NCBI RefSeq assembly: GCF_900324475.1
Contig: NZ_LT992502.1
Span: 2,170,001-2,234,000, forward strand
DNA: 64,000 nucleotides
Direction: 5' to 3'
Source of the DNA: Enterobacter bugandensis
Lineage (GTDB): Bacteria > Pseudomonadota > Gammaproteobacteria > Enterobacterales > Enterobacteriaceae
Every line of letters begins with the position of its first letter. Positions within the stretch are counted from its first letter, which is position 1. Both the position numbers and the translations under genes were made by a program. Below, in pieces: positions 41,508 through 64,000 of this stretch. The notes under the pieces are model-generated. The model was not told where the DNA came from and did not search any database. It saw only the letters and a list, made by a program, of their open reading frames with translations.

Positions 41508-42586
41508 GGCTTCGCCTCCCGCGTATCAATCGTCACCTGTACCGACATACCCGGACGCAGCAGCGCAGACTCTTCAGGCTTACCGAGCACCTCAATGCGC
41601 ACCGGAATACGCTGGGCGATTTTGACAAAGTTGCCGGTGGCGTTGTCCGGCGTGATAGCGCTGAATTCAACCCCGGTCGCCGGCGAGATGCTCTCTACGC
41701 GGCCCTGATACGCTTTGTTGTTTAAGGCATCGACGGTAAACTTCACCGGCTGACCGACGCGCAGCTCCGCCAGCTGGGTCTCTTTGATGTTGGCAATCAC
41801 CCAGTGCTGCGGCGGTACCAGCGTAGTGAGGTGCGTTCCGGCAGTCACGTACGCGCCGAGACGCACGGCAATCTGGCCGAGCTGGCCGTCCCGCGGGGCG
41901 ATAATGCGGGTGTTTTGCAGGTCAATCTGCGCCAGCTCCAGCGCCGCTTTGGCGTTTTCAACATCTGCCTCCAGCGCGCCGCGGTTCACAATCACCGTCT
42001 GCAGATCCTGACGCGACATCTCAAGCGTGGCTTTCGCCTGGTCGATATCCGCGCTGCCCTGAGCCGCACTGGCCAGCGCGGCATCGCGCTCGCGAATGGA
42101 AAGCGACCCATCCGCCGTCAGATCCTTCACGCGCTTTAAATCCGCCTGGGTTTTCAGGCTCTGGGCGCGGGCATTTTTCAGCGCGGCTTCATTTTTGGCA
42201 ATGGTCGCTTCGGCGCTTTTCCGCTGCTGCAGGTTGTTATTCAGCGCGGCAATTTTCATCGCCAGCTGCGCCTCGGCCTGATGCACGCGCTGACGATAGA
42301 TGCGGTCATCGATCTGCAACAGCAGATCGCCTTTTTTAACCTGCACAAAGTCCTGAACCTTCACCTCGGTGATATAGCCGTTAACCTGGGGGCTAATGAA
42401 CGTCGTCTGGCCGCGCACGTAGGCGTTGTCGGTAAACTGCGCGTGGCGGGTAAACGGCGGCAGCTGCCAGGCGTAAAGAATGACCAGCACGCCGACAATA
42501 CCGATGGCAGCGGCGGTGAAAACGGAAACAATGCGCACATTTTTGCGGGTGTTGGCCTGCTCTTTGGCGGCATCCTGCTGACTCAT
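41504..42586 (-). CDS. HlyD/EmrA-family membrane fusion protein
   Basis: 360 residues. One N-terminal membrane helix (VSVFTAAAIGIVGVLVILYAW), then the lipoyl-like half FTDNAYVRGQTTFISPQVNGYI and a long alpha-helical hairpin, followed by the second lipoyl half near IIAPRDGQLGQIAVRLG. It connects the MFS pump to the outer membrane channel. Gene order MFS, HlyD, outer membrane protein is that of EmrAB-type operons with their own exit duct. Confidence 0.94.
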   Translation of the reverse strand: MSQQDAAKEQANTRKNVRIVSVFTAAAIGIVGVLVILYAWQLPPFTRHAQFTDNAYVRGQTTFISPQVNGYITEVKVQDFVQVKKGDLLLQIDDRIYRQRVHQAEAQLAMKIAALNNNLQQRKSAEATIAKNEAALKNARAQSLKTQADLKRVKDLTADGSLSIRERDAALASAAQGSADIDQAKATLEMSRQDLQTVIVNRGALEADVENAKAALELAQIDLQNTRIIAPRDGQLGQIAVRLGAYVTAGTHLTTLVPPQHWVIANIKETQLAELRVGQPVKFTVDALNNKAYQGRVESISPATGVEFSAITPDNATGNFVKIAQRIPVRIEVLGKPEESALLRPGMSVQVTIDTREAKP

Positions 42587-42608
42587 AAACTCTCCAGAAA
42601 TATTACAA

Positions 42609-44261
42609 TTATTTGTTGCCGGTGGCGTTCTTCAGCGCCATACGGGCAGTAATGCGCAGGCGCAGCAAGCGCCATAAAATCCAGACCAGCGTGGCGGCAG
42701 CGATGCTTGCCGTCAGCAGATAAGTATCGTTATAGGCCAGAATATTTGCCTCAAGGGTGGTCACCGTCTGTAGCTGGGTAATGGCCTGCGTTCCCAGCAG
42801 CGTACTGTCGCCAATCAGGCTTTTATACATCTGGGTATAAAGCTGAATCCGCTCGTTGACCAGCGGGTTAAGCGTGGTGAGCTGATCCGCCAGCAGGCTG
42901 GAGTGGTATTTCTCGCGCCAGGTCTGGAAGGTGCCGAGAATCGCCGATCCCAGCAGGCCGCCGAGGTTCTGGCTCATGCCAAACATGACCGAAAAGCTGA
43001 CCAGGTTACGCGGGTCGGCAATTACCCCGCCAATGGCGGCCAGCATGGCGGGCGCCAGGAAGAAGGCGCTGCCGAAGCCCAGCAGGAACTGGCTGACCAT
43101 CAGCTGATCCGGGCGGGTCAGATTATTGGACTGGCTGTCCAGCAGCGAGGCAACAATCATCAGCGCCAGAGAGGTGATAATCGGCCACGCCAGCTTTGTG
43201 GGCTTGATGGTGAGGCAGCTGGTGACGATCCCGCAGACGATCCCGGCGAAAATGGACCACGCCAGATGGGTCATCTGCTCATTCTGTAACCCCACGTACT
43301 GCAGCCAGCCGATGACGCCGGTATTTTGCTCCGCCAGCACGATGCGGATCAGCAGCATGATCAGCCCCAGGCGAACGATGCTGCCGCTCGACAGCCAGCG
43401 GGTGTTCAGCAGTGGGTTGGCGCGGTTATGTTCAAACACGATGGCGGAAACAATCAGCACCAGCGATAGCGCCAGCGACCAGCCGATCCACGGCGCCTCG
43501 AACCACCAGTCCAGACGGCCTAAAGAGAGCACGGCGCAGAGCAGGGCCATTCCGGGAGCCAGTAAAAAGAAGGTGACAAAGTCTTTCTTCTCGAAGACCT
43601 TGCGTCGGTCACCCGGCGGCAGTTTTAAGGCGATTACGCAGGCCAGGGAGATCAGCGCCAGCCCCAGTTCAAAGAAATAGAGCCCGCGCCACTCGTCCAG
43701 CTGGAGAAGCTCAGTGGAAAACAGACGCGCCAGCGGAATAGCGAGCGACGATCCGGTGATCCCGATGGTAAGCGCCTTCAGGCGATGCTTCGCAGGCCAG
43801 GCCTGGATTTGGTAGTAAATCCCCAGCGAGCTGAGCGCGGCGGCCACCATCCCGTGCGCGGCGCGTACCATCAGCGCGGAGCTGAGGTCGTTAACGAACA
43901 GGTGGAAAAAGGTGACCAGCACGTAGAGCACCAGAAAACCTTCCGTAAAGGCGCGCAGGCCGTACTGTTGACGAAATTTGACCAGCAGCAGGTTAATGGA
44001 GATGTTGGTCATCACATAGACTGCGGGCAGCCAGGCGATTTCGGTCGACCAGGCCCCGAAGGTTCCCTGCAGGTTTTGCAGGTTGGCGGTGACCACCGCA
44101 TTGCCCAGTGCCCCCGTCAGGCAAACCAGCAGCCCAACGACGCCATAGGCGACGCGTTTTGGCGTACTGTGCTCGGGGGTGGAAGGCGAACCCAGCAGGG
44201 CGGGTTTCTCATGGGGCTGCCACTCGCGAGGAGCATAAGGGTCGCGTTCGGGCAGGCGCAT
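42609..44261 (-). CDS. DHA2-family MFS efflux pump (EmrB-like)
   Basis: 550 residues with about 14 membrane helices, the length expected for the DHA2 drug:proton antiporters. The first helix region VVGLLVCLTGALGNAVVTANLQNL and AHGMVAAALSSLGIYYQIQ mark the family. It is somewhat divergent from EmrB itself, so the drug spectrum is unknown. First gene of the three-gene operon, divergent from ydcF. Confidence 0.93.
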   Translation of the reverse strand: MRLPERDPYAPREWQPHEKPALLGSPSTPEHSTPKRVAYGVVGLLVCLTGALGNAVVTANLQNLQGTFGAWSTEIAWLPAVYVMTNISINLLLVKFRQQYGLRAFTEGFLVLYVLVTFFHLFVNDLSSALMVRAAHGMVAAALSSLGIYYQIQAWPAKHRLKALTIGITGSSLAIPLARLFSTELLQLDEWRGLYFFELGLALISLACVIALKLPPGDRRKVFEKKDFVTFFLLAPGMALLCAVLSLGRLDWWFEAPWIGWSLALSLVLIVSAIVFEHNRANPLLNTRWLSSGSIVRLGLIMLLIRIVLAEQNTGVIGWLQYVGLQNEQMTHLAWSIFAGIVCGIVTSCLTIKPTKLAWPIITSLALMIVASLLDSQSNNLTRPDQLMVSQFLLGFGSAFFLAPAMLAAIGGVIADPRNLVSFSVMFGMSQNLGGLLGSAILGTFQTWREKYHSSLLADQLTTLNPLVNERIQLYTQMYKSLIGDSTLLGTQAITQLQTVTTLEANILAYNDTYLLTASIAAATLVWILWRLLRLRITARMALKNATGNK

Positions 44262-48902: not shown

Positions 48903-49618
48903 GGGCAGCAATCCTGCAAAATGTCGCAATAAATCGCATAATACAGCATTTTGACGCAGAAGGAAGGAGTATCGTAAACCAGGTTGATGTTTAATTATTG
49001 GAATTATATTAAGCGGATATCATTAAGCCGTTCTGAATGTTAACCACAGTGTTAATGTTATGTTTTAATCAACGATTTGGGTTATGTAACCAACGCATTG
49101 TCATTAACTGGTGGAATATGCTGATATGTAATTAAAATAAAGCATTTAATGTCTGATTTATGTTTTTTATTAGAATTATTTTTCAACAAATCGATGGCTC
49201 TTACTTAAGTTGACACTTCTTTGAAAATCTTTGTGTCTGACCCGCTCAGAAATTAACGCAAAAATGTGCGCAGAGGAGATTAAGAATTTTCCTTAAATTA
49301 CAGTGTGTTTTGATGTTTCATCTGAAAGGCTATTTTCGGAGTTTTGTCCAGAAACCCCATGTTTTTTCTTATATGTAACACTGCATTAACATTGTGGGTG
49401 TAGTGGCCTATACCACATTTTGTTATGCTGCAAATCAACTTATGAAATAAGTAATTTCTTAAATTTAATAAGACAAAGGCGGATCTCATCTCCATCGGAA
49501 ATGGGTATGGGGAGCTTTACCTGAAATTTAGCGAGGAAGTTAAATAAGATATTTGTCTAATTATCTGTACCTCTTTTTGGGTAATTGCTTGAGTATCACT
49601 CAGAGTCAGGGAGATAAA
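48903..49618. other. Long AT-rich intergenic region before the adhesin locus
   Basis: About 716 bases without a convincing gene, visibly AT-rich compared with everything around it. It contains a TTGACA -35-like hexamer at 49210-49215 without a good -10, and a GGTTA-TG-TAACC inverted repeat at 49080-49091. The stretch must hold the DeoR promoter and the promoter and regulatory sites of the secretion locus. Such AT-rich leaders are typical H-NS targets (inference). A 65-codon antisense frame at 49298-49495 has no recognisable product. Confidence 0.6.
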
Positions 49619-50956
49619 ATGACGATATTACGCAAGCCTGTTTCACGCCAATTTATAGCTACGCTGGCGTTAATTTCATTAGCCCTAAATACGGCTTATG
49701 CCAATAGTGGCGCGGTAGGTATTGCCCCGATGGCAACGACGACCTTAAAGGAAAGTATTCTTTTCGCTATCGATCGCGATCCGTCAATTAGCCAGCAGGC
49801 CGCGCAGTTAGGTATTGGTCAGGCGCAAATAGACGAGGCGCGCAGCGGCTGGATGCCGCAAATAGCGTTGAACGGGAGTACGGGGCATAGCCAGACCACC
49901 GATTCCAGCGGTTCGCTGAAGAACTCTGCGGCCTGGGGGGTGAGCCTGACCCAGCTGATATACGATTTTGGCAAGACCAACAACAGCATCAGCCAGTCTT
50001 CCGCCCAGCGCGATAGCTACCGCTACCAGCTGATGAGCACGCTTTCTGACGTGGCGGAAAAAACGGCGCTCGGCTACGTGGAGGTCAAACGTTATTCCGA
50101 CCTGCTACAGGCGGCAAAAGAGAATGTTCAGGCACTGAAAAACGTGGAGCAGCTGGCCAAGCTGCGCGCCGATGCGGGCGTGAGTTCCACCTCCGATGAA
50201 CTCCAGACCCGCACGCGTATTGCCGGCATGCAGGCGACGGTGGCGCAGTATAACGCCGCATTGAACAGCGCCCGCGCAAGGCTCGCGGTATTAACCGGAA
50301 TGCAGGCAGATCATTATTCGCCGGTCCCCGCAAACCTCGCCGTTGAGCCGGATTCGCTTAACCGCATTGATTATTCGTTAATACCGGCGGTAATGGCCGC
50401 GCAGAATATGGAACGTTCGGCCCAGTATGGCGTTGAAACGGCGAAGTCCCAGCACTGGCCAACCCTGAGCCTGAAGGGGGGACGCACGCGTTACGAATCG
50501 GACAACCGCTCATACTGGGACGACCAGATCCAGCTCAATATTGACGCACCGCTTTATCAGGGCGGCGCGGTATCCGCACGCGTGCGTCAGGCTGAGGGTG
50601 CACGAGCGATGGCGTCCTCTCAGGTCGATCAGGCGCGTTTCGACGTGCTGCAAAAGGCCTCCGTCGCGCAAGCTGACTGGACCGGCGCACGGGGAAGAAT
50701 GGAGGCCGGGAAGCGGCAGCTGGAAAATGCGCTGCGGGCCCGCGAGGTTTATAAAAATGAATACACCCTGAGCAAGCGGAGCATTAATGATTTGCTCAGC
50801 GTTGAGCAGGATGTCTGGCAGGCCACGTCGGCGAAAATAATCGCCGAGTATGATGGCTGGAGTTCGGCAATTAATTATGCTTCCGCGGTTGATAATTTAA
50901 TGCCGCTTATTGGAATAGAGAAAAACGCTGCCGCAAAATTACCCGATTTGAGTTAA
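49619..50956 (+). CDS. TolC-family outer membrane protein of a type I secretion locus
   Basis: 445 residues from the ATG at 49619, chosen because AGGGAGATAAA precedes it; an earlier in-frame start at 49553 adds 22 unlikely residues. A signal peptide is evident (MTILRKPVSRQFIATLALISL, cleavage near ANS). The TolC-like helical repeats include QAQIDEARSGWMPQIALNGS, YDFGKTNNSISQSSAQ and the second-half LNIDAPLYQGGAVSARVRQAEG. It immediately precedes the giant adhesin gene on the same strand and would form its outer membrane duct. The inner membrane ABC and HlyD partners are not in the window. Confidence 0.9.
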   Translation: MTILRKPVSRQFIATLALISLALNTAYANSGAVGIAPMATTTLKESILFAIDRDPSISQQAAQLGIGQAQIDEARSGWMPQIALNGSTGHSQTTDSSGSLKNSAAWGVSLTQLIYDFGKTNNSISQSSAQRDSYRYQLMSTLSDVAEKTALGYVEVKRYSDLLQAAKENVQALKNVEQLAKLRADAGVSSTSDELQTRTRIAGMQATVAQYNAALNSARARLAVLTGMQADHYSPVPANLAVEPDSLNRIDYSLIPAVMAAQNMERSAQYGVETAKSQHWPTLSLKGGRTRYESDNRSYWDDQIQLNIDAPLYQGGAVSARVRQAEGARAMASSQVDQARFDVLQKASVAQADWTGARGRMEAGKRQLENALRAREVYKNEYTLSKRSINDLLSVEQDVWQATSAKIIAEYDGWSSAINYASAVDNLMPLIGIEKNAAAKLPDLS

Positions 50957-51033
50957 CAAAAGCCACGCATAGCTGCACGAAATAAGTCTGAAAATAATGG
51001 GTGTTTTTTCCCAGGGATAGCTACATCCGTCTG

Positions 51034-51047
51034 GTGGATATATCCAC
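51034..51047. promoter_or_regulatory. Perfect 14-base palindrome between tolC-like gene and adhesin gene
   Basis: GTGGATATATCCAC lies 30 bases upstream of the adhesin start in the 121-base gap. It could be an operator, or an RNA hairpin that modulates the downstream ribosome binding site (AAGGAGAGGAAT). No known motif matches. Confidence 0.4.
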
Positions 51048-51077
51048 AGGGATCCGTACACCTGCAAGGAGAGGAAT

Positions 51078-54000
51078 ATGAGTAACGTAAAGGTTGTTGA
51101 TGTCATCATTCGCAAAACGGCGGAGAAAACGAAATTAACCGGCGAAGGGAATCTGTCGGTCTCTATTTCATCGCCGAGCGTGCTTGAAATTCAGGGCTCT
51201 GCTCAGGACGTGGTGCGTTATGTCCGCCAGGGTAAAGACCTTCTCATTTATATGAAGGACGGCAGCGTTATTCGCTGCAATAACTATTTTGTTGAAGATC
51301 CTGAAACCCAACATCAGTCAGAGCTGGTGTTCAACGACGGGCAGGAACTGACTCATCTCTCTTTTGCCGATGCCGGGGAAGCATCAGGCGTTGCCGCTAC
51401 TGAATTAACCGCGCAGGCCACACCCATTAGCAGCATTGAACCCTTCCTGGAGCAGGGAAGCGCCCTGAGCGATGCCCCGTGGGGCTGGATTGCAGGGGCG
51501 GCGTTAGGCGGCGGTGCTATCGGCGCACTGCTGGCCCACGGCGGTGACGGCGAAACCAAAACGAAAGTCATTGATAACACAAAAGAAGTGGAAAGCGCCA
51601 CGCCGACCTTCCTGCTGTCGGACAAGGTGGGCGACAAGCAGGGAGTGCTGAGCGCAAACGCCCTCACGGACGATAACGCGCCGACCTTCAGCGGTACCGG
51701 TCAGCCGGGCGCGACCATCCAGATTAAAGACGGCAGCGGCAGCACCATCGCCAGCGCGATGGTCGGTAAAGACGGCACCTGGACGGTAAAACTCCCGACC
51801 CAGGCCGACGGAGAGCACACCTGGTCGGTGGTGCAGATCGACGGCAGTAAAACCACGTCAGCGGGCAACATCACCGTGACCGTTTCTACGTCCGAGGCCA
51901 CGCTTACGCTGGCGACAACGGCGGGTGACAACGTGATTAACGCCAGCGAACAGTCCGCAGGCTTTACGCTGTCCGGCAGCAGCCAGCATCTGGCGCAGGG
52001 AACCGACGTTTCCGTAACGCTGAACGGCAAAGCCTACACCGCTCAGGTGGGAGCAGACGGCGCGTGGAGCGTTAACGTGCCTGCGGCAGACGCGCAGGCG
52101 CTCAGCGACGGTACCTGGACCGTCAGCGTCAGCGGCAAAGACGCGGCGGGTAACACCGTGAGCGGAAGCCAGACGATTGGCGTGGATACCGCTGCGCCAA
52201 CGCTCTCCGTCGATACGCTCGCGCAGGACAACATCATTAATGCCGCTGAGCACAACCAGCCGCTGACGCTGAGTGGTAAAACCAACGCGGAAGCCGGGCA
52301 GATTGTGACGGTGACGCTGAACGGCAAAAATTATAACGCCACGGTGGGCAGCGACGGCACCTGGTCCGTCACGCTGGCGGCCAGCGAGGTGCATGCCCTT
52401 AATGAGGGTCACCACACCCTGACGGTGAACGTCAGCGACAAAGCAGGCAACGGCTCGTCCGTGACCGCGGATTTCACGGTAGATACCAACGCGCCGGTCG
52501 TCACCATCAACACCGTCGCGGGCGACGATATCCTCAACACCAGCGAGCAGGGACAGGCGCAGATTATTTCCGGGCAGGCGAGCGGCGCGGCGGCAGGCGA
52601 TGTCGTCACCGTGACCGTTGGCGGCCAGACCTTCACCGGCGTCGTACAGGTAGACGGCAGCTGGAGCGTGGGCGTTCCTGCCTCCGTCGTCGGCGCGCTG
52701 GGTGAGGGCAACCACACCATTGCCGTCTCCGTCACCGACGCAGCGGGGAACACCGGTAGCGCCATGCACGGCATTGCGCTGAGCGGCAACCCGCCGGAAT
52801 TTACGATTGACGCCATCAGCCAGGACAACGTGCTGAATGCCCGGGAGGCAATGCAGCCGCTGAGCCTGAGCGGCACCAGCAATCTGCCGGACGGCAGCGC
52901 CGTTACCGTGACGCTGAACAACGTCAGCTATCAGGCGACCGTCGAAAACGGTATCTGGACGGTTCAGGTGCCGGTATCCGACGTCCTGAATCTGGCGAAC
53001 ACCCTCTATAGCGTCAGCGTCAGCGGCACCGACAGCGTGGGTAACAGCGGCTCCGCAGAGGCGAATCTGCTGGTCGATACCGTGCTGCCGAAGGTGATCA
53101 TTAACACCTTTGCGGGGGATAACCTGGTTAATAACGCCGAAGCGGGAGTGGACCAAACCCTCAGTGGCCGCGTTACCGGCGCGGCGGCGGGCGATACGGT
53201 GTCTGTTACCGTTGGCGGTAAGAGTTACAGCGCCACGGTGGGCAGCGATCTGACCTGGAACGTCACGATCCCTTCAGCGGATCTTCAGGCGTTCGGCGAC
53301 GGGGATTTGACCTTTACCGCCTCCGTGACCAACGGGCACGGTAATACCGGCACCGGCGAGCGCGATATCAATATCAACGCGGAACTGCCGGGTCTGCGCG
53401 TAAATACCATTTCCGGCGATGATGTGATCAACGCCATCGAGCAACAGCAGGATCTGACCGTCACCGGCGCCAGCACCCATCTGGCCGCAGGTACGCCGAT
53501 TGTCGTCACCATCAACAACGTCGACTATCAGGCCGTGGTGACCGCCAGCGGCGGCTGGAGCATTGGCGTTCCTGCTGCGGATCTGCAAGCCTGGACGGCC
53601 GGAGGTATGACGGTCAGCGTCAGCGCGGAAGATGCCTGGGGCAACACCGTTGCGGCTGAACACCCGATTGAACTCGATCTCAACGCCGTGGCGGTCACCA
53701 TTGATACCGTCTCCGGTGATGACCTGCTGAACGCGGCAGAAAAAGGGAGCGACTTAACCCTCTCCGGCCAGACGCAGGGCGTGGAGGCGGGGCAAACCGT
53801 GGTGGTGAAATTTGCCGACCAGACTTTTACCGCGCAGGTGCAGCAGGATGGCTCCTGGAGCCTGACCGTCCCGGCGAACGCCATGGAAACGCTGATTGAC
53901 GGGCGGGCGCAGGTAAGCGTCAGCGTGACTAACGTCAGCGGCAACAGCGCGGACGCCTCACGCGTGGTAACCGTCGATACGCAGCCGCCCGCCATTACGC

Positions 54001-57000
54001 TCGATAATCTGACCGACGACAACATCATCAATGCGGCAGAAGCGCAGCAGGATCTGGTGCTCAGCGGCAGCACAACAGCTGAAACGGGGCAGACGGTCAC
54101 CGTGACGCTGAACGGCAAAAACTATCAAACTACCGTGCAAGCTGACGGCACCTGGACGCTGAACGTGCCTGCCGCCGACGTTGGCGCGCTGGCAGACGGC
54201 ACTGTCACCGTGACGGCCTCCGTCAGCGACGTGGCAGGTAACAGCAGCAGTACGGACCGCGTTGGGCTGGTGGATGCCACCGTGCCGCAGGTGACCATTA
54301 ATGACTTTGTCACCGACACCAACACCGTTAACCAGCTGGCCCATTCTCAGGCGCAGATCCTGAGCGGCTCCGTCACTGGCGCGGCGGCGGGCGATTTGGT
54401 CACCATCACTATTAATAACGTGGACTACACCACCGCGGTGGACGCGGCGGGCAACTGGAGCCTCGGCCTGCCTGCATCCGTCGTTCAGGGGCTGACGGAC
54501 GGCACATGGACCATTAACGTCTCCGTGACCGATCGCTCCGGCAACACCGGCAGCAGTTCTCTGGATGTGGTGGTGAATACCGTGACGCCTGTTATCGGTA
54601 TTAACACCCTGGCCGTAGATGACGTGATCAATGCGGCAGAGAAGGGTGAAGATCTGCTGCTTTCCGGTACCAGCAACCAGCCGGAAGGGACCACCATCAC
54701 TGTAAACCTGAACGGTATCAACTACACCACCACCACTAACGCTAGCGGCAGCTGGAGCGTCACCGTGCCTGCCTCTGCGGTGAGCGCGCTGGGCGAAGCC
54801 AATTACACCGTGACGGCGAGCGTTACCGATAATGTGGGCAACAGCGCCTCAACCTCGCACGATGTGCTGGTGGACAGCGCGTTGCCGGTCGTCACTATCA
54901 ACACTTTCGCGACCGACAATATCGTCAACGCGGCGGAAGTCACCGCAGGGCAAACCCTGACCGGGAAGGTCTCTAACGCGGCATCGGGCGATACCGTCAC
55001 GATTATCCTCGGTGGTCAGACATACACCGCTACCGTGCAGGACGATCTCTCATGGAGCCTGCCGTTAACCGAGAGCCAGTTAACCGCGCTCGGCAACGGC
55101 GAACTGGCCGTATCGGCCAGCGTCACCAACGCGCACGGCAACACCGGTTCGACTTCGCTGGACTTCACCATCGACGCCCAACTGCCGGGCCTGCGTATTG
55201 ATACCGTGGCGGGTGATGATGTCATTAACGTCATTGAGCACGCTCAGAACCTGATTGTTTCCGGTTCAAGCACCGATCTGGCAGCGGGCAGCACCGTCAC
55301 GGTGACCATTAACGGCAAGATCTATTCCGCAACCGTACTGGCGGACGGTACCTGGCAGGCGGCGGTTCCGGCAGCGGACGTGTCCCAGTGGGCGGACGGT
55401 TCGCTGGATATCAAGGCAAGCGCGCAGGACCCTTCCGGCAACCCGGTGACTATCGGCACCGTCGTGGACGTCGATCTCGCGCCGGTCGCCGTCAGCATCA
55501 ACAGCGTGACCGCGGACAACGTGCTCAACGCGGCAGAAAAAGGTCAGGATCTGGTGCTTTCCGGCTCCTCCGCGAACGTAGAAGCGGGCCAGACCGTCAC
55601 CATCACCTTTGCGGGTAAAACCTACACCACGACGGTGAACGCCAACGGCGACTGGACGTACACCGTACCGGCAGCCGATTTGAGCGGCCTGAAGGACGGC
55701 GACGCCAGCGTGCAGGTCAGCGTGAGCAACCTGAACGGCAACGCGGCGTCGTCTGCGCAGGAGTTCAGCATCGATACCGCCGCGCCAACGGTGACCATCA
55801 ATACCATCAGCGGCGACAACATGCTGAACGCGGCTGAGGCAGCGCAGGATCTGACCCTGAGCGGAACGTCCACTGCCGAAGCGGGCCAGACGGTTACCGT
55901 AACCTTCAACGGCAACCAGTACACCGCGCAGGTGCAGGCCGACGGCAGCTGGACGCTGGTCGTGCCGGCAGCCGATCTGGCGGGCATCACCGACGGCAGC
56001 GCGGCGGTCACGGCGACCGTGTCCGACAAAGCCGGCAACCCGGCCAGCGCGGATGCCTCCGTGCTGGTGGATACCACCGTACCGCAGATTAGTTTCAACA
56101 TCGTCGCGGGCGACGACATTGTGAATATTGCCGAGCACGGCCAGGCGCTGATCGTCTCCGGCAAGGTCACGGGCGCGCAGGCGGGTGACGTCATTACCGT
56201 CACCCTGAACGGCAAAGACTACACCGCGATGCTGGACGCGTCCGGAAGCTGGAGCGTGGGCGTTCCGGCGGCAGACGTGGGCACGCTGGCTAACGGCGAG
56301 CAGACGATCTCCGCGACCCTCACCGACAAAGCGGGTAACAGCACCACCGCCACGCATGAATTTGACGTCTCCCTGGCCGCGCCGGAGATTGCCATCAATA
56401 CCCTGGCGCTTGACGACGTGATTAACGCGGTCGAGAAAGGCCAGGATCTGCTGATTTCGGGCACCAGCAACCAGCCGGAAGGTACAGCCATTACGGTGAT
56501 CCTGAACGGCATCAGCTACGCCGCGACCACCAACGCCAGCGGCGGCTGGAGCGTAACCGTTCCGGCGGCGAACGTCTCTGCGCTGGGCGAAGCGAGCTAT
56601 ACCGTCACGGCAGGCGTGACCGATAGCGCAGGCAACGGCGCGAACGCCAGCCATAGCGTGCTGGTCGACAGCGCGCTGCCACAGGTTACCATTAACGTAA
56701 TCGCCATCGATGACGTGATTAACGCGGCGGAAGTCGCTTCCGGACAAACCCTGAGCGGGAAGGTGAGCGGCGCGGCGAGCGGTGACACTGTCACCCTTTC
56801 AATCGGCGGCAATACGTATACCGCGACGGTTCAGGACGATCTGAGCTGGTCGGTCAACGTGCCGTCCGCGGTCTTAACCGCCATCGGTAATGGCGATCTG
56901 ACGGTGTCAGCCAGCGTCACTAACGGCCACTGCAACACCGGCTTCGGCGAGCGCGAGATCACCATCGACGCCAATCTGCCGGGCCTGCGCGTCGATACCG

Positions 57001-60000
57001 TGGCGGGCGACGACGTGATTAACAGCATTGAGCATGCGCAGAACCTGATTATTACCGGCTCCAGCGACGGCCTGGCAGCGGGCGCGGCGCTGAGCGTGAT
57101 CGTCAACGGCAAAACCTACGCGGCCACGGTGCTGGCAGACGGTACCTGGACGGCGGCCATTCCGGCGGCAGACGTCAGCGCGCTCGGCGCAGGCACGGTC
57201 ACCGTGAAGGTCGAGGGAAATAGCGCGGCAGGCAACCCGGTCTCCATCAGCCACGACGTGAAGGTCGATCTGGCGACGGTTGCTATCAGCATTGACGCGA
57301 TTGCGACCGACGATGTGATTAATGCGGCAGAAAAAGGCGCAGATCTGGTGCTTTCAGGTTCTACCAGCAACGTGGAAGAGAACCAGACGGTTTACATCAC
57401 GTTCGGCGGCAAGTCCTACACGGCGAAAGTGGATGCCAGCGGCAACTGGACGGCGACCGTGCCGTCGGCAGATCTGGCTGGCCTGAAGGATGGCGACGCC
57501 AGCGTGCAGGTGAGCGTCACCAACGTGAACGGCAACAGCGCCTCGGCGGGACGCGAATACGGCGTGGACGCCACCGCGCCGACGGTCTCCATCGAAATCG
57601 TCAGCGACAACAACATCATCAATGCCGCCGAAGCGCAGCAGGATCTGGTCGTCAACGGCGTCTCTAACGCCGAAGCGGGCCAGACCGTGACCGTCACGCT
57701 GAACGGCGTGGATTACACCACCACCGTGCAGGCAAACGGCAGCTGGAGCGTGACCGTGCCTTCTGCTGATGTGGGCGCGATTACCGACGGGAACTATACC
57801 GTCAGCGCCGCCGTGTCGGACAAAGCGGGCAACCCGGCCTCCGCGGCTCGCGATGTGCTGGTCGATACCACCGTGCCACAGCTGACCATCAACACCGTTT
57901 CCGATGACGACGTGATCAACAGCGCCGAGCACGGGCAGGCTCTGATCGTTACCGGCTCAGTGACCGGCGCGGCGGCGGGCGACGTGGTGACCGTCACCAT
58001 CAATAACAAAGATTACACGGCGACGCTGGATGCGTCCGGCAACTGGAGCGTGGGCGTGCCTGCGGCGGACGTCGGTGCCCTGACCGCCGGGGATTACACC
58101 ATCACCGCGGCGCTGACCGACAAAGCCGGAAACAGCAACAGCGCGACGCGCGAGGTGGAAGTCAACCTGAGCGCGCCAGTGCTGACCATCGACACCGTCT
58201 CCGGTGACGATGTGATCAACAGCAGCGAGAAAACGCAGGATCTGACCATCACCGGTACGGCTTCCGGACTGGCGGCGGGCGCGGTGGTGAACGTGATGCT
58301 CAACGGCAAAGCCTACAGCGCCACGGTTGAGGCCAACGGCCAATGGTCCACGACGGTTCCGGCGAGCGAAGTGGGGCAACTGGGTGAAGCGCTTTACACC
58401 GTCACTGCCTCCGCAACGGACAGCGTCGGCAACGGCACCAGCACCTCGCACACCGTCAACGTGGAGTCCGTTCTGCCGGGCGTCACGATCAACACCGTGG
58501 CAGGCGATGACGTCATCAACGCGGCGGAGCTGGCTGCCGGCCAGACCATTAGCGGTAAGGTGGTGAATGCCGAGGCGGGCAACACCGTGACCGTAACGAT
58601 TGGCGGCAACAGCTACACCGCAACGGTGCAGAGCGATCTGACCTGGTCCGTCGATGTACCGGAATCGGTCCTGACGGCGCTGGGCAACGGCGATCTGACT
58701 GTAACCGCCAGCGTGACGAACGGCGTGGGCAACAGCGGCAGCGGCGAGCGTGAGATCGCGATAGACGCCAGCCTGCCGGGCCTGCGCGTGGACACCGTGG
58801 CGGGCGACGACGTGATCAACAGCATCGAACACGGACAGAACCTGATTATTACCGGTTCCAGCAATGGCCTGAGCGCAGGCACGGCGCTGACCGTTACCGT
58901 CAACGGCAAAACCTATCCCGCGACGGTACTGGCGGATGGTACATGGAGCGCGGCTCTCCCTTCTGCGGACGTAAGTGCCCTGGCAGCGGGCACGGTCACC
59001 GTGACCGTTGAAGGCCAGAGCAGCGCGGGCAATCCGGTTTCCATCAGCCACGATGTGACGGTGGATCTGGCGAACGTCGCTATCAGCATCGACGCCATTG
59101 CCACCGATGACGTGATTAACGCGGCGGAGAAAGGGGCGGATCTGGAGCTCTCCGGCACCACCTCAAACGTGGAGGAAAATCAAACCGTCACCATCACCTT
59201 CGGCGGCAAGAACTACACCGCCACGGTGGACGCTGAGGGTAAGTGGACCGCCACGGTGCCAGCGGCAGATCTGGCGGGCCTGAAGGACGGTGACGCCAGC
59301 GTGCAGGTAAGCGTCACCAACGTCAACGGCAACAGCGCCTCTGCGGGCCGCGAGTACAGCGTGGATGCCACCGCGCCATCCGTCACCATTAATACTATTG
59401 CGACCGATGACATTCTGAACGCCACGGAAGCGCAGTCTGACCTGGCGATTTCCGGCAGCAGCACCGCCGAAGCGGGCCAGACCGTGACTGTGTCGCTGAA
59501 CGGCAAAGACTACACCTCAACCGTCAGCGCGGACGGCAGCTGGACGCTGAACGTTCCGTCGGCGGATCTGGCGGCGCTTAATGACGGCAGCGTCACCGTT
59601 ACCGCATCGGTCAGCGACAAGGCGGGCAACCCGGCATCCGTAAACCATAACCTGACGGTGGACGTGACCGTCCCTGCAGTCACCATCAACGCCGTGGCGG
59701 GCGACGACGTGATTAACGTCGCCGAGCACGGTCAGGCGCAGATTATCAGCGGCACCGCCACCGGCGCGGCAGCGGGCGATAAGGTCACCGTGACTATCGG
59801 CGGCCAGACTTACACCACCGTACTGGACGCGGCGGGTAACTGGAGCGTGGGCGTTCCGGCGAGCGTGATTTCCGGCCTCAGCGACGGCACCGTGACCGTC
59901 ACTGCGTCTGTTACCGACGCGGCGGGCAACACCGGCAGCGGCACCCATAACGTGACCGTCGATACCGGTCTGCCATCGGTCAACTTCAACGCCATCAGCG

Positions 60001-63000
60001 GCGATAACGTTCTGAATGCGGTGGAAAAAGGTCAGGATCTGAGCGTCAGCGGCACCAGCGCCAACCTGGCGGAAGGCACCGTGGTGACCGTGACCCTCAA
60101 CGGTAAAAACTACACCGCAACGACCGCTGCGGACGGCACCTGGAGCCTGACGGTTCCGGCTGCGGATCTGGCCGGTCTCGGTCAGGCAAGTTACACCCTC
60201 AATGCGACCGCCACCAACGGCGTGGGCAACAGCGTGAGCAGCGCTGCGAACCTGCTGGTCGACACCGCGCTGCCGACCGTCACCATCAACACCGTGGCGG
60301 GCGATAACGTTATCAACGCGGCGGAAGTGGCGGCAGGCCAGACCCTGAGCGGTACCGTGGCGAATGCCGAAGCGGGCAACACCGTAACCGTGACCATTGG
60401 CGGCAACAGCTATACCGCAACGGTGCAGAACGATCTGAGCTGGTCCGTGAACGTGCCGTCTGATGTGCTGACCGCACTCGGCAACGGCAGCCTGAGCGTG
60501 ACGGCAACCGTCACCAACGGCCACGGCAACACCGGCAGCGGCGAGCGTGAGATCGCGATAGACGCTAACCTGCCGGGCCTGCGCGTGAACACCGTGGCGG
60601 GCGACGACGTGGTCAACAGCATTGAGCATGCGCAGAACCTGATCGTCACCGGCTCCAGCGACGGGCTGGCGGCGGGCACTACGCTGACCGTTACCGTGAA
60701 CGGCAAAGACTATGCGGCGACGGTGCTGGCGGACGGCACCTGGAGCGCGGCGGTTCCGTCTGCGGACGTGAGCGCGTGGCCGGAAGGCACAGTAAAAATC
60801 AGCGTCACTGGCGACAGCGCGGCGGGTAACCCGATTACCATCAGTCACGATGTGACCGTCGATCTGGCCTCTGTTGCCATCAGCATCAACGCCATTGCCA
60901 CCGACGACGTGATCAACGCTGCGGAGAAAGGGGCGGATCTGGTGCTGTCCGGCGCGACCACCAACGTGGAAGCCGGGCAGACCGTCACCCTGAGCCTGAA
61001 CGGTAAAATCTACACCACTACCGTAGAAGCAGACGGCAACTGGACCTATACCGTGCCGGCTGCGGATCTGGCGGGCCTCAAGGACGGCGACGCCAGCCTG
61101 CAGGTGAGCGTCACCAACGTGAACGGCAACAGCGCCTCGGCGGGCCGCGAGTACAGCGTGGATGCCACCGCGCCATCCGTCACCATCAATAAGATGGCGA
61201 CTGACGACATCCTGAACGCCACGGAAGCGCAGTCTGACCTGACGGTTTCCGGCACCAGCACCGCCGAAGCGGGCCAGACCGTGACCGTGTCGCTGAACGG
61301 CAAAGACTACACCACAACCGTCGGCGCGGACGGTAGCTGGACGCTGAACGTTCCGGCAGCGGATCTGGCGTCGCTCAGCGACGGCAGCGTCACCGTGACC
61401 GCGAGCGTAAGCGACAAGGCGGGCAACCCGGCATCCGTAAACCATAACCTGACGGTGGACGTGACCGTGCCTGCGGTGACCATCAACACCGTGGCGGGCG
61501 ATGACGTGATCAACCTCGCCGAGCACGCGCAGGCGCAAATCATCAGCGGCACCGCCACCGGCGCAGCAGCGGGCGATAAGGTCACCGTCACGATTGGCGG
61601 CCAGACGTACACTACCGTGCTGGACGCGGCGGGGAACTGGAGCGTGGGCGTTCCGGCCAGCGTGATTTCCGGTCTCAGCGACGGCACCGTGACCGTCACT
61701 GCATCTGTTACCGACGCGGCGGGCAACACCGGCAGCGGCAGCCATAACGTCACCGTGGACACCGGGCTGCCGTCCGTGGGCTTTAACGCCATCAGCGGCG
61801 ATAACGTCCTGAACGCGGTGGAAAAAGGTCAGGAACTAAGCGTCAGCGGCACCAGCGCCAACCTGGCGGAAGGCACCGTGGTGACCGTGGCCCTCAACGG
61901 TAAAAACTACACCGCAACGACCGCCGCAGACGGCACCTGGAGCCTGACGGTTCCGGCGGCGGATCTGGCGGGTCTGGGCGAAGCGAATTACACCCTGAGC
62001 GCAGCCGCGACCAACGGCGTGGGCAATAGCGTCAGCAATACGGCGAACCTGCTGGTCGACACCGCGCTGCCGACCGTCACCATCAACACCGTGGCGGGTG
62101 ATAACGTCATCAACGCGGCAGAAGTGGCGGCAGGCCAGACCATCACCGGTAAGGTGGCGAACGCGGAAGCCGGTAACACGGTGACGATGAACATTGGCGG
62201 CAACAGCTACACCGCGACGGTGCAGAGCGACCTGACCTGGTCCGTGAGCGTGCCGGAGTCCGTCCTGACGGCCTTGGGCAACGGCGATTTGACCGTGTCG
62301 GCGACCGTCACCAACGGCCACGGCAATACCGGCGCGGGCGAGCGCGAAATCGTTATAGACGCCAGCCTGCCGGGTCTGCGTATCAATACCGTGGCGGGCG
62401 ATGATGTGATCAACAGCATCGAGCACGGACAGAACCTGATCGTCACCGGTTCCAGCGACGGGCTGGCGGCGGGCACCACGCTCACCGTGACCGTTAACGG
62501 CAAAACTTATGCGGCCTCCGTGCTGGCGAACGGTACCTGGAGCGCGGCGATCCCGGCCGCAGACGTGGGTGCCCTGGCAGCAGGCGCGGTGACCGTCACC
62601 GTGGCAGGCCAGAGCAGCGCGGGTAACCCGGTCTCCATCAGTCACGACGTCACCGTCGATCTGGCGGCCGTGGCGATCAGCATCGATGCGATCGCCACCG
62701 ACGACGTGATTAACGCGGCGGAGAAAGGCGCGGATCTGGTGCTCTCGGGCAGCACCTCGAACGTGGAGGAAAACCAGACCGTCACAATCGCCTTCGGCGG
62801 CAAAACCTACACCGCGAAAGTGGATGCCGACGGCAACTGGACGGCCACCGTGCCTTCCGCGGATCTCGCGGGCCTGAAGGACGGCGACGCCAGCGTGCAG
62901 GTGAGCGTCACCAACGTGCACGGCAACAGCGCGACGGCAGGCCGCGAGTACAGCGTGGACGCGACCGCGCCGACCGTGACGATTGATACGGTGGCAGGTG

Positions 63001-64000
63001 ATAACGTGATTAACGGCAGCGAAGCGGCTGCGGGCGTGACCATCTCCGGCACCACCACGGCGGAAGCCGGGCAGACGGTCACCGTGACGCTGGGCGGCAA
63101 GAGCTATAGCGCTCAGGTGCAGCAGGGCGGTATCTGGAGCGTCAACGTGCCGGGCACCGACCTCTCCGCACTGGCCGATAACGGTTACACCCTGCAGGTC
63201 AGCGTGAGCGACGCCGCGGGTAACCCGGGCAGCGCGGGCAAAGCGATTACGCTTGATACCACACCGCCGTCCGTCAGCTTTAAGGCTGTGGCGGGCGATG
63301 ACGTCATCAACAGCGTGGAGCACGGGCAGGCGCAGATCGTGAGCGGAACGGCAACCGGCGCGAGCGTCGGCGATAAGCTGGTCATCACCATCGGTTCGAA
63401 CCAGTACACCACCACCGTTGACGCCAGCGGCAACTGGAGCGTGGGCGTTCCGGCCAGCGTGATTTCTGCCCTGACCGACGGCACCGTGACCATTAGCGCG
63501 ACCATTACCGACAGCGCGGGCAACAGCAGCACCCAGACTCACGATGTGGTGGTGAACACGGCTTCCGTGGCGCTGACGGTGAACACCCTCAGCGGTGACG
63601 ACGTCATCAACGCGACAGAAGCGGGTAGTTCGCTGGTGATTAACGGCTCCAGCGCCCAGTTCGCCAGCGGGACGCAGGTCACCGTGACGCTGAACGGCAA
63701 GACCTATACGGCCACCATCCAGAACGACGGCAGCTGGACGACCACCGTTCCGGCCGCAGACGTGGGTGCCCTGGCCGATGGCGCGAGCTATCAGGTATCC
63801 GTGTCGGCGCAGGACAGCGCGGGCAACAGCGCCTCGGCGACGCACGGCATCAGCGTGGATACCACCGCGCCTGTCGTGAGCATTGCGACGCTGTCGGGTG
63901 ACGACATGCTGAACGCGCTGGAAGCGCAGCAGCCGCTGACGGTACACGGGTCGTCCAGCGCGGAGGCGGGCCAGACCGTCACCGTGACGCTGGGCGGCAA
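51078..64000 (+). CDS. bapA: Giant BapA-type adhesin, 3' end outside window
   Basis: The ATG at 51078 is preceded by AAGGAGAGGAAT and the frame stays open to the last base, at least 4,307 codons. Residues 1-130 form a BapA-like prefix module without a signal peptide, followed by a glycine-rich hydrophobic segment at about 134-153 (PWGWIAGAALGGGAIGALLA) and an Ig-like domain at about 175-270. From about residue 271 onward some 41 Ig-like repeats of about 100 residues follow, each with a DDVIN or DNVIN turn and an aspartate-rich start. The protein would be exported by a type I system through the TolC-like protein encoded upstream and act in surface attachment and biofilm formation. Only two cysteines were noticed, at residues 67 and 1952. 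The C-terminal secretion signal is not in view. The symbol bapA is by similarity in plan. Confidence 0.9.
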   Translation, partial: MSNVKVVDVIIRKTAEKTKLTGEGNLSVSISSPSVLEIQGSAQDVVRYVRQGKDLLIYMKDGSVIRCNNYFVEDPETQHQSELVFNDGQELTHLSFADAGEASGVAATELTAQATPISSIEPFLEQGSALSDAPWGWIAGAALGGGAIGALLAHGGDGETKTKVIDNTKEVESATPTFLLSDKVGDKQGVLSANALTDDNAPTFSGTGQPGATIQIKDGSGSTIASAMVGKDGTWTVKLPTQADGEHTWSVVQIDGSKTTSAGNITVTVSTSEATLTLATTAGDNVINASEQSAGFTLSGSSQHLAQGTDVSVTLNGKAYTAQVGADGAWSVNVPAADAQALSDGTWTVSVSGKDAAGNTVSGSQTIGVDTAAPTLSVDTLAQDNIINAAEHNQPLTLSGKTNAEAGQIVTVTLNGKNYNATVGSDGTWSVTLAASEVHALNEGHHTLTVNVSDKAGNGSSVTADFTVDTNAPVVTINTVAGDDILNTSEQGQAQIISGQASGAAAGDVVTVTVGGQTFTGVVQVDGSWSVGVPASVVGALGEGNHTIAVSVTDAAGNTGSAMHGIALSGNPPEFTIDAISQDNVLNAREAMQPLSLSGTSNLPDGSAVTVTLNNVSYQATVENGIWTVQVPVSDVLNLANTLYSVSVSGTDSVGNSGSAEANLLVDTVLPKVIINTFAGDNLVNNAEAGVDQTLSGRVTGAAAGDTVSVTVGGKSYSATVGSDLTWNVTIPSADLQAFGDGDLTFTASVTNGHGNTGTGERDININAELPGLRVNTISGDDVINAIEQQQDLTVTGASTHLAAGTPIVVTINNVDYQAVVTASGGWSIGVPAADLQAWTAGGMTVSVSAEDAWGNTVAAEHPIELDLNAVAVTIDTVSGDDLLNAAEKGSDLTLSGQTQGVEAGQTVVVKFADQTFTAQVQQDGSWSLTVPANAMETLIDGRAQVSVSVTNVSGNSADASRVVTVDTQPPAITLDNLTDDNIINAAEAQQDLVLSGSTTAETGQTVTVTLNGKNYQTTVQADGTWTLNVPAADVGALADGTVTVTASVSDVAGNSSSTDRVGLVDATVPQVTINDFVTDTNTVNQLAHSQAQILSGSVTGAAAGDLVTITINNVDYTTAVDAAGNWSLGLPASVVQGLTDGTWTINVSVTDRSGNTGSSSLDVVVNTVTPVIGINTLAVDDVINAAEKGEDLLLSGTSNQPEGTTITVNLNGINYTTTTNASGSWSVTVPASAVSALGEANYTVTASVTDNVGNSASTSHDVLVDSALPVVTINTFATDNIVNAAEVTAGQTLTGKVSNAASGDTVTIILGGQTYTATVQDDLSWSLPLTESQLTALGNGELAVSASVTNAHGNTGSTSLDFTIDAQLPGLRIDTVAGDDVINVIEHAQNLIVSGSSTDLAAGSTVTVTINGKIYSATVLADGTWQAAVPAADVSQWADGSLDIKASAQDPSGNPVTIGTVVDVDLAPVAVSINSVTADNVLNAAEKGQDLVLSGSSANVEAGQTVTITFAGKTYTTTVNANGDWTYTVPAADLSGLKDGDASVQVSVSNLNGNAASSAQEFSIDTAAPTVTINTISGDNMLNAAEAAQDLTLSGTSTAEAGQTVTVTFNGNQYTAQVQADGSWTLVVPAADLAGITDGSAAVTATVSDKAGNPASADASVLVDTTVPQISFNIVAGDDIVNIAEHGQALIVSGKVTGAQAGDVITVTLNGKDYTAMLDASGSWSVGVPAADVGTLANGEQTISATLTDKAGNSTTATHEFDVSLAAPEIAINTLALDDVINAVEKGQDLLISGTSNQPEGTAITVILNGISYAATTNASGGWSVTVPAANVSALGEASYTVTAGVTDSAGNGANASHSVLVDSALPQVTINVIAIDDVINAAEVASGQTLSGKVSGAASGDTVTLSIGGNTYTATVQDDLSWSVNVPSAVLTAIGNGDLTVSASVTNGHCNTGFGEREITIDANLPGLRVDTVAGDDVINSIEHAQNLIITGSSDGLAAGAALSVIVNGKTYAATVLADGTWTAAIPAADVSALGAGTVTVKVEGNSAAGNPVSISHDVKVDLATVAISIDAIATDDVINAAEKGADLVLSGSTSNVEENQTVYITFGGKSYTAKVDASGNWTATVPSADLAGLKDGDASVQVSVTNVNGNSASAGREYGVDATAPTVSIEIVSDNNIINAAEAQQDLVVNGVSNAEAGQTVTVTLNGVDYTTTVQANGSWSVTVPSADVGAITDGNYTVSAAVSDKAGNPASAARDVLVDTTVPQLTINTVSDDDVINSAEHGQALIVTGSVTGAAAGDVVTVTINNKDYTATLDASGNWSVGVPAADVGALTAGDYTITAALTDKAGNSNSATREVEVNLSAPVLTIDTVSGDDVINSSEKTQDLTITGTASGLAAGAVVNVMLNGKAYSATVEANGQWSTTVPASEVGQLGEALYTVTASATDSVGNGTSTSHTVNVESVLPGVTINTVAGDDVINAAELAAGQTISGKVVNAEAGNTVTVTIGGNSYTATVQSDLTWSVDVPESVLTALGNGDLTVTASVTNGVGNSGSGEREIAIDASLPGLRVDTVAGDDVINSIEHGQNLIITGSSNGLSAGTALTVTVNGKTYPATVLADGTWSAALPSADVSALAAGTVTVTVEGQSSAGNPVSISHDVTVDLANVAISIDAIATDDVINAAEKGADLELSGTTSNVEENQTVTITFGGKNYTATVDAEGKWTATVPAADLAGLKDGDASVQVSVTNVNGNSASAGREYSVDATAPSVTINTIATDDILNATEAQSDLAISGSSTAEAGQTVTVSLNGKDYTSTVSADGSWTLNVPSADLAALNDGSVTVTASVSDKAGNPASVNHNLTVDVTVPAVTINAVAGDDVINVAEHGQAQIISGTATGAAAGDKVTVTIGGQTYTTVLDAAGNWSVGVPASVISGLSDGTVTVTASVTDAAGNTGSGTHNVTVDTGLPSVNFNAISGDNVLNAVEKGQDLSVSGTSANLAEGTVVTVTLNGKNYTATTAADGTWSLTVPAADLAGLGQASYTLNATATNGVGNSVSSAANLLVDTALPTVTINTVAGDNVINAAEVAAGQTLSGTVANAEAGNTVTVTIGGNSYTATVQNDLSWSVNVPSDVLTALGNGSLSVTATVTNGHGNTGSGEREIAIDANLPGLRVNTVAGDDVVNSIEHAQNLIVTGSSDGLAAGTTLTVTVNGKDYAATVLADGTWSAAVPSADVSAWPEGTVKISVTGDSAAGNPITISHDVTVDLASVAISINAIATDDVINAAEKGADLVLSGATTNVEAGQTVTLSLNGKIYTTTVEADGNWTYTVPAADLAGLKDGDASLQVSVTNVNGNSASAGREYSVDATAPSVTINKMATDDILNATEAQSDLTVSGTSTAEAGQTVTVSLNGKDYTTTVGADGSWTLNVPAADLASLSDGSVTVTASVSDKAGNPASVNHNLTVDVTVPAVTINTVAGDDVINLAEHAQAQIISGTATGAAAGDKVTVTIGGQTYTTVLDAAGNWSVGVPASVISGLSDGTVTVTASVTDAAGNTGSGSHNVTVDTGLPSVGFNAISGDNVLNAVEKGQELSVSGTSANLAEGTVVTVALNGKNYTATTAADGTWSLTVPAADLAGLGEANYTLSAAATNGVGNSVSNTANLLVDTALPTVTINTVAGDNVINAAEVAAGQTITGKVANAEAGNTVTMNIGGNSYTATVQSDLTWSVSVPESVLTALGNGDLTVSATVTNGHGNTGAGEREIVIDASLPGLRINTVAGDDVINSIEHGQNLIVTGSSDGLAAGTTLTVTVNGKTYAASVLANGTWSAAIPAADVGALAAGAVTVTVAGQSSAGNPVSISHDVTVDLAAVAISIDAIATDDVINAAEKGADLVLSGSTSNVEENQTVTIAFGGKTYTAKVDADGNWTATVPSADLAGLKDGDASVQVSVTNVHGNSATAGREYSVDATAPTVTIDTVAGDNVINGSEAAAGVTISGTTTAEAGQTVTVTLGGKSYSAQVQQGGIWSVNVPGTDLSALADNGYTLQVSVSDAAGNPGSAGKAITLDTTPPSVSFKAVAGDDVINSVEHGQAQIVSGTATGASVGDKLVITIGSNQYTTTVDASGNWSVGVPASVISALTDGTVTISATITDSAGNSSTQTHDVVVNTASVALTVNTLSGDDVINATEAGSSLVINGSSAQFASGTQVTVTLNGKTYTATIQNDGSWTTTVPAADVGALADGASYQVSVSAQDSAGNSASATHGISVDTTAPVVSIATLSGDDMLNALEAQQPLTVHGSSSAEAGQTVTVTLGG
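51888..64000 (+). repeat. Array of about 41 Ig-like repeats within the adhesin gene
   Basis: Tandem units of about 297-303 bases. The anchor codons for the D-D/N-x-[IL]-N turn lie at 51927 (first) and 63900 (last), giving a mean period of 299 bases over 40 intervals. All units stay in one frame. Units share the core xVTVTLNGKxYTATV, ADGxWSVxVPAADV and TDxAGNTxS, with variable ends. The array continues past the window edge. Confidence 0.92.
52182..62955 (+). repeat. Higher-order repeat: six copies of a six-unit block (1.79-1.80 kb)
   Basis: Six unit types recur in the same order. Anchors of the first type (NAAEAxQDL, TAEAGQT) lie at 52227, 54018, 55815, 57609, 59406, 61203 and 63000; intervals are 1791, 1797, 1794, 1797, 1797 and 1797 bases. 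Another type, LPGLRxxTVAGDDVxNSIEH, recurs at about 53400, 55200, 57000, 58790, 60590 and 62380. The remaining types are recognisable by GAAAGD, LDDVINAVEKGQDL, AAEVAAGQTLSG and ATDDVINAAEKGADL. Boundaries are approximate. The cycle is broken at the 41st unit (63900). Confidence 0.88.

Follow-up and report, generated by a model that had tools for sequence, protein, structure and literature searches.

BapA is an adhesin of Salmonella. The gene analysed here (51078..63998, forward strand; 4307 codons, with the 3' end outside) lies in a stretch of 64,000 nucleotides of Enterobacter bugandensis DNA (contig NZ_LT992502.1, positions 2,170,001 to 2,234,000), hereafter the window. It resembles the BapA/LapA-type adhesins in its BapA_N prefix, its immunoglobulin-like (Ig-like) repeats and an adjoining TolC-type gene, and an orthologue in Enterobacter cloacae is also accompanied by ABC- and HlyD-type genes and carries a C-terminal target of the type I secretion system (T1SS). 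Judged from its sequence, the window gene codes for a giant, type I-secreted Enterobacter adhesin of the BapA type. The repeats of this protein belong to six types that recur in strict order, and homologues usually differ in length by the whole block of six domains.

Several described systems share individual traits with this array, as far as the available portions of the cited texts go. The Ca2+ extender domains of MpAFP region II (NF033510; PDB 4p99, 5irb, 6xi3; for SiiE 2yn3/2yn5) are similar in their beta-sandwich, which holds for MpAFP, and in matching Asp residues at some joints, but the repeats of MpAFP are identical (PMC4083281), whereas the present array alternates between six types and regularly has the complete Asp pair at only two of its six joints. 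Periscope Proteins likewise form rods whose length varies among close relatives by the gain or loss of repeats, for which recombination has been proposed (PMC8201768, PMC9704523); however, high identity of the tandem domains is the defining trait of that class, while neighbours in the present array are about 40% alike and the usual step comprises six domains. Acinetobacter Bap, likewise a giant Ig-like adhesin, is polymorphic and comprises modules of several lettered types, but the accessible part of that study (PMC4647330) mentions no strict order of six types. Domain repeats are known to grow by several domains at once, frequently in the middle of the array, the step being seven domains in nebulin (PMC1553488), and the super-repeats of the titin A-band, taken from a listing, are comparable. 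The super-repeats surveyed by Bjorklund et al. (2006) are, in the part available, mainly eukaryotic, whereas the block step reported here still segregates between bacterial strains. Searches of open-access papers revealed no published account of the six-type array.

Six domain types in strict order

Forty Ig-like units of 98-101 residues each (u1-u40) were delimited in the window. Units u2-u37 form six blocks with the order ABCDEF (52203..62975, forward strand as all features below), whose lengths range from 1791 to 1797 bp. Block 1 (u2-u7; 52203..53993, 1791 bp) is the most divergent one and is followed by block 2 (u8-u13; 53994..55790, 1797 bp), block 3 (u14-u19; 55791..57584, 1794 bp), block 4 (u20-u25; 57585..59381, 1797 bp), block 5 (u26-u31; 59382..61178, 1797 bp) and block 6 (u32-u37; 61179..62975, 1797 bp). 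Unit u1 (51903..52202) is located outside the six-unit register, and units u38-u40 (62976..63875) represent the start of a diverged tail, in which u38 and u39 are labelled A and B, the former weakly. An earlier note on this DNA had placed the same array at 52182-62955, shifted by about 20 bp, and its intervals of 1791-1797 bases were recovered.

The dominance of the six-unit period is evident at every level of self-comparison. In the 4307-aa frame protein identity peaks at an offset of 599 residues (47%) and reaches only 29% at 100 residues; the corresponding DNA comparison shows the strong signal at 1797 bp (57%) and the weaker one at 300 bp (46%) that the earlier note had expected. Mean identity between units is 0.656 at lag 6 compared with 0.40-0.42 at lags 1-5 (lag 1: mean 0.398, maximum 0.55), and the best partner is a multiple of six units away for 36 of the 40 units, the exceptions being u1, u7, u38 and u40. 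When the 36 block units were clustered into six groups with two methods, the adjusted Rand index was 1.0 with type and -0.167 with block. The units accordingly group by type and not by adjacency, the outcome that would have spoken against the earlier note. Same-type exceeds different-type identity by 0.217, a value matched by none of 20000 permutations (maximum 0.061). The claim of six types in strict order with six recurrences of a block of about 599 residues is thus confirmed by the lag identities and by an error-free clustering, and the array exhibits the fixed recurring order of several domain types that characterizes multi-domain super-repeats. Tandem Repeats Finder returned no entry for the array, because the block exceeds its longest period of 500 and the divergence among the 300-bp units is too great for it.

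Length steps of one block and their probable recombinational origin

The comparison of homologues was based on the best 120 of 3592 and the best 120 of 3593 matches, which together with the window protein amount to 241 proteins, largely from the Enterobacter cloacae complex and including near copies; 16 without the expected C-terminus were left out. With type labels derived from profiles of the window's own units, an intact (ABCDEF)n array is present in 218 of the 225 remaining full-length homologues. The 217 that also possess the usual tail contain four (3 proteins), five (65) or six blocks (149), and the two main lengths of 6001 aa (138 proteins) and 5402 aa (57 proteins) differ by one block. 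Each of the 57 proteins with 5402 aa can be aligned to a 6001-aa protein by a single gap of 599 residues, with 3-93 mismatches, and three such pairs are 99.9% identical outside the missing block. A hand count of contigs larger than 2 Mb among the matches listed yielded 23 proteins of 6001 aa, 12 of 5402 aa, two of 6017 aa and one of 5999 aa. Copy number between related strains, whose comparison the earlier note had proposed, hence varies mostly by steps of 599-residue blocks.

The gaps in the 5402-aa proteins are not located at a common position. At least nine disjoint intervals are needed to accommodate all breakpoints, and the nine proteins with no more than 10 mismatches alone require at least four of them. 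This scatter led us to reject a fixed excision or insertion site, and its combination with whole-block steps is indicative of homologous recombination between blocks in register.

The distribution of exact direct repeats within the window array points in the same direction. Of 22 repeats of at least 25 bp, 20 are spaced at multiples of six units, as are 13 of 13 with at least 30 bp and all three with at least 50 bp. The longest one (59 bp; 59613..59671, second copy at 61410) connects blocks 5 and 6 at a spacing of 1797 bp and could serve as a substrate for in-register recombination. Neighbouring units, in contrast, have no exact repeat of at least 20 bp in common, so that the pairing of wrong types in recombination is hardly possible. 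Moreover, the six types average only 33-47% identity in protein, and DNA homology sufficient for homologous recombination therefore exists almost exclusively between the same types of different blocks. In-register homologous recombination between blocks is the best mechanism available and in our view very probably the correct one. Unequal recombination, presumably of the RecA type, would pair the blocks in register and add or remove 599 residues, and every product of such a block step would retain the reading frame, the type order and the chemistry of all six joints. One block would correspond to about 28 nm of fibre, provided that the domain is about 47 A long as in MpAFP.

Block history across genera and the genomic setting

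The ABCDEF grammar is shared by Enterobacter, Lelliottia, Huaxiibacter, Buttiauxella and Pluralibacter; the arrays of Huaxiibacter and Buttiauxella are cut by contig ends and follow the order up to there. Complete genes range from four blocks in Lelliottia CCUG 25894 to 15 in a relative of 11324 aa (L050+L051), and the Pluralibacter gergoviae relative (L029+L030) harbors 14 blocks on 11128 aa. For each of blocks 1-4 of the window a one-to-one counterpart exists in the Enterobacter species under comparison as well as in Lelliottia WAP21, with values of 0.86-0.92 for the counterparts in E. cloacae and E. hormaechei versus 0.50-0.72 for other blocks. The most similar pair within the window, blocks 5 and 6, shows only 85.8% DNA identity. 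These two observations document that the array is old in the window's own lineage.

A phylogenetic tree of 93 blocks from 12 genes, calculated with a quick method and supported by the Shimodaira-Hasegawa-like approximate likelihood-ratio test (SH-aLRT) only, unites block 1 of ten of the 12 genes in one clade. Other blocks form clades within a single gene, namely, all 14 blocks of Pluralibacter (support 100), 14 of 15 in S50 (100), 7 of 8 in S63 (100), 7 of 8 in S82 (93) and 4 of 5 in S47 (99), and the block has consequently been amplified separately in several lineages with its register kept. The amplification is recent in S_L063, where blocks 6 and 7 exhibit 98.7% DNA identity with an exact tract of 1287 bp. 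Expansion by six-domain blocks instead of single domains, as the earlier note had put it, is thus supported by the fixed type order, by the one-block differences between near-identical homologues and by the single-gene block clades found elsewhere.

The BapA_N domain (PF22783) is present in 54 of 149 genomes of the host family. Fifty BapA_N frames comprise at least 3300 aa, of which 46 were examined newly and three were already in the set; one of 3394 aa was left out, as were shorter frames. The six-unit period and order recur in nine of the 46, and many of the long frames exhibit no strong block period. A four-unit block of about 404 residues characterizes L052 and L071, in the latter of which some 300-bp stretches are identical at one-block spacing. 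L057 and L085 have a three-unit block of types B, C and D with about 297-299 residues, E and F being rare (long masked stretches are contained in L057 and in L033). The 5239-aa protein L044 possesses a homogeneous tandem array of 106-aa units unlike the diverse arrays. Six as a fixed structural number was rejected on account of the 404-aa (four-unit) and about 297-aa (three-unit) periods in related giants, which suggest that the number reflects lineage history rather than a structural constant. A three-domain ancestry of the block was also dismissed, the pairing A-D, B-E and C-F ranking only fourth of 15 by identity. Of the 17 genomes searched, 16 contain a second, more distant BapA_N match, which in 14 cases lies in a frame of 3355-4206 aa. 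Unlike the window gene, which is the long, block-repeated one, the two representatives examined (L031 and L032, about 3735 aa), those of E. cloacae and Lelliottia CCUG 25894, consist of units of about 104 aa and show no six-unit or 599-residue period.

The nearest relative of the window protein among the matches listed is an E. bugandensis protein of 6001 aa, which differs at 60 of 4307 residues. Upstream of its array the window protein contains the BapA_N prefix-like domain (51099..51482, residues 8-135; PF22783 with 76.3 bits at a cut-off of 27, NF033677 with 56.3 at 35) and a Big_6 Ig-like domain (51660..51863, residues 195-262; PF17936 with 42.2 bits at 27.6), and the tandem repeats are recognized in 30 stretches by PF19077 (Big_13) and in 42 by NF033510 (Ca_tandemer). 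A hydrophobic, glycine-rich stretch directly behind the BapA_N domain (51477-51536) might possibly retain the protein in the secretion channel or act as a plug there, which is a guess. The gene adjoining the adhesin upstream (49553..50956) encodes a TolC-family type I secretion outer-membrane protein (TIGR01844, 314.3 bits; cut-off 225.15). Downstream of the E. cloacae orthologue there are genes for a type I secretion ABC transporter (TIGR03375) and an HlyD-type adaptor (TIGR01843), and the last 1500 residues of this orthologue comprise further Ig-like domains, FG-GAP repeats and a C-terminal type I secretion target (TIGR03661, 32.3 bits; cut-off 17.6), a region before which the window gene is cut. 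A near search with the stretch 49400-52000 matched no E. coli genome. Elsewhere in the window, three adjoining genes for a DHA2-type transporter, an EmrA-like adaptor and a NodT-type outer-membrane protein represent an efflux system (40128-44261).

Joints between domains and the possible meaning of the block

The domain types also differ at their joints. The pair Asp95/Asp80, whose positions match the inter-domain calcium clamp of MpAFP and SiiE, is complete in 132 of 133 F-A and 146 of 150 A-B joints from 19 genes, compared with 5 of 137 (B-C), 2 of 131 (C-D), 12 of 130 (D-E) and 0 of 132 (E-F), joints whose units did not pass the filters for type and alignment having been left out here and in the comparison with other BapA_N arrays (in L071 this concerned roughly half of the array's joints). 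The inter-domain ligand pair is hence regularly complete at F-A and A-B only, with the column placement resting on a profile alignment and partly on our own judgement. Column 95 is ambiguous by two residues relative to MpAFP and pairs with an Asp of SiiE in the profile alignment, and the equation of columns 80 and 95 with SiiE D97 and D117, as well as the acidic residue of column 31 as third ligand, are our own placements. For the second inter-repeat ligand of MpAFP, the available part of the MpAFP paper provides residue numbers and a hairpin, and its assignment to the Asp of the D-x-x-G-N loop follows from our own chain counting. In ten of the 19 genes type-specific residues were counted: Asp80 reaches 99% in A and B, Asn80 97% in D and 92% in F, and Asp95 98-99% in A and F, whereas Pro99 is absent in E, present in 82-84% of B and nearly always found in the other types. 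The array domains exhibit the beta-sandwich fold of MpAFP region II; SiiE (2yn3/2yn5) is not among the best 50 of either fold list, but the sequence profile does find it. In a structure model of seven domains (mean predicted local distance difference test, pLDDT, of 92) the linker strand comprises three to four residues at five joints and two at E-F.

Read in terms of chemistry, the F-A, A-B and perhaps the E-F joints would be calcium-clamped and B-C, C-D and D-E looser. Since the calcium-clamp residues are type-specific, the block as a structural period, an idea already raised in the earlier note, becomes a concrete proposal. It would be one mechanical period with a clamped stretch E-F-A-B and a looser stretch B-C-D-E, and fibre length would change mainly by whole periods. 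Any kind of recombination might then occur, while selection would retain only whole-block products, in which the pattern of clamped and unclamped joints remains fixed. The near-fixation of Asp80, Asn80, Asp95 and Pro99 states across lineages is in agreement with this explanation, and the short E-F linker strand of the model may be regarded as a weak hint of a mechanical period. Yet asparagine can stand in for aspartate as a calcium ligand. Mixed joints are furthermore present in BapA_N arrays that lack a block period, so that a period cannot be proved from the joint pattern by itself; related giants have blocks of three or four domains; and in-register homology already accounts for whole-block steps without selection. 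We therefore regard a selected period as a tentative proposal with roughly one chance in three. The three- and four-domain giants may carry periodic joint patterns of their own (counting ligands gives 3-3-1-1 for the four-domain array of L071, half of those joints being poorly aligned), and block repeats may allow bacteria to adjust the rhythm of flexibility along their longest surface fibres. The rotation of about 90 degrees per domain given in the accessible text for MpAFP (PMC4083281) would not close over six domains, and we draw no inference from it. A different selective advantage might lie in the dissimilarity of neighbours, if unlike domains are kept side by side to avoid misfolding and the block lengthens the array without placing like beside like. 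The lag-1 identity of about 40% equals the value quoted for multidomain proteins in the available parts of PMC4647330 and PMC9704523. The type order, however, ranks only 14th lowest of 120 for neighbour identity in the window and 12th of 120 in the nine-gene set, which is not convincing, and arrays of like domains do exist, namely, the homogeneous one of L044 and about 120 tandem copies of an identical repeat in MpAFP (PMC4083281). We consider this explanation unlikely.

The block counts themselves could in principle be artefacts of short-read assemblies, in which repeats are collapsed or expanded, and the collapse of repeats is indeed known (PMC6868369, in the part available). The question is connected with the forms that deviate from the rule, all of which weigh against an exclusively block-wise change. 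Eight of the 225 full-length proteins deviate, seven of them by a broken array. P0136 (5202 aa) has cleanly lost 200 residues, i.e. two domains, at 2877-2880 inside the array and otherwise shows no mismatch to a 5402-aa protein; P0131 (3598 aa) equals a 5402-aa protein minus 1804 residues; in P0138 (5378 aa) 24 residues are missing from a single domain; and the type order is broken in the forms of 5097, 5603, 5636 and 5832 aa. In P0107 (5902 aa) one domain of 99 residues has apparently been lost at 4396-4401 in the tail outside the blocks, as judged from a comparison with a 6001-aa protein of only 92% identity. S_L045, S_L062 and Pluralibacter show half-block irregularities, and in two of the 217 proteins (5297 and 5896 aa) 105 residues are missing outside the blocks, further along the chain. 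Among the matches listed, all eight deviating forms are located on contigs below 2 Mb and none on a larger one, and they may reflect assembly errors. Clean losses such as the two-domain loss of P0136 may nevertheless be real, in which case block steps represent the rule but not the sole kind of change. For the block counts as such, an artefact is very improbable and largely refuted: forms with five and six blocks are both found on chromosome-sized contigs, blocks 5 and 6 with their 85.8% identity and no exact tract above 59 bp are too different for an easy collapse, and the same grammar is present in several genera.

In-register recombination between blocks can thus build on what was directly observed, i.e. 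the block structure, the block-sized length steps, the scattered breakpoints, the in-register homology and the separate amplification in other lineages. With respect to the Periscope Proteins, repeat number varies among close relatives in the same manner, and highly identical neighbouring domains are lacking (lag-1 identity 0.398); the adhesin behaves like a Periscope Protein at the level of the block despite its unlike neighbours.

Block-wise growth and recombinational variation of rod length have been known before, and what sets this adhesin apart is the block of six unlike domains as the usual varying unit. Descriptions of bacterial adhesins with variable length commonly have near-identical domains in this role. 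The order within this block has been kept across several genera and through separate amplifications, and homology that exists almost only in register provides a simple reason why a diverse array can change its length in frame. With natural, near-identical strains that are one block apart, the consequences of fibre length can be tested without engineered constructs. Should the joint pattern prove physically true, a repeating series of joints would encode the stiffness of the fibre, akin in idea to the super-repeats of muscle proteins.

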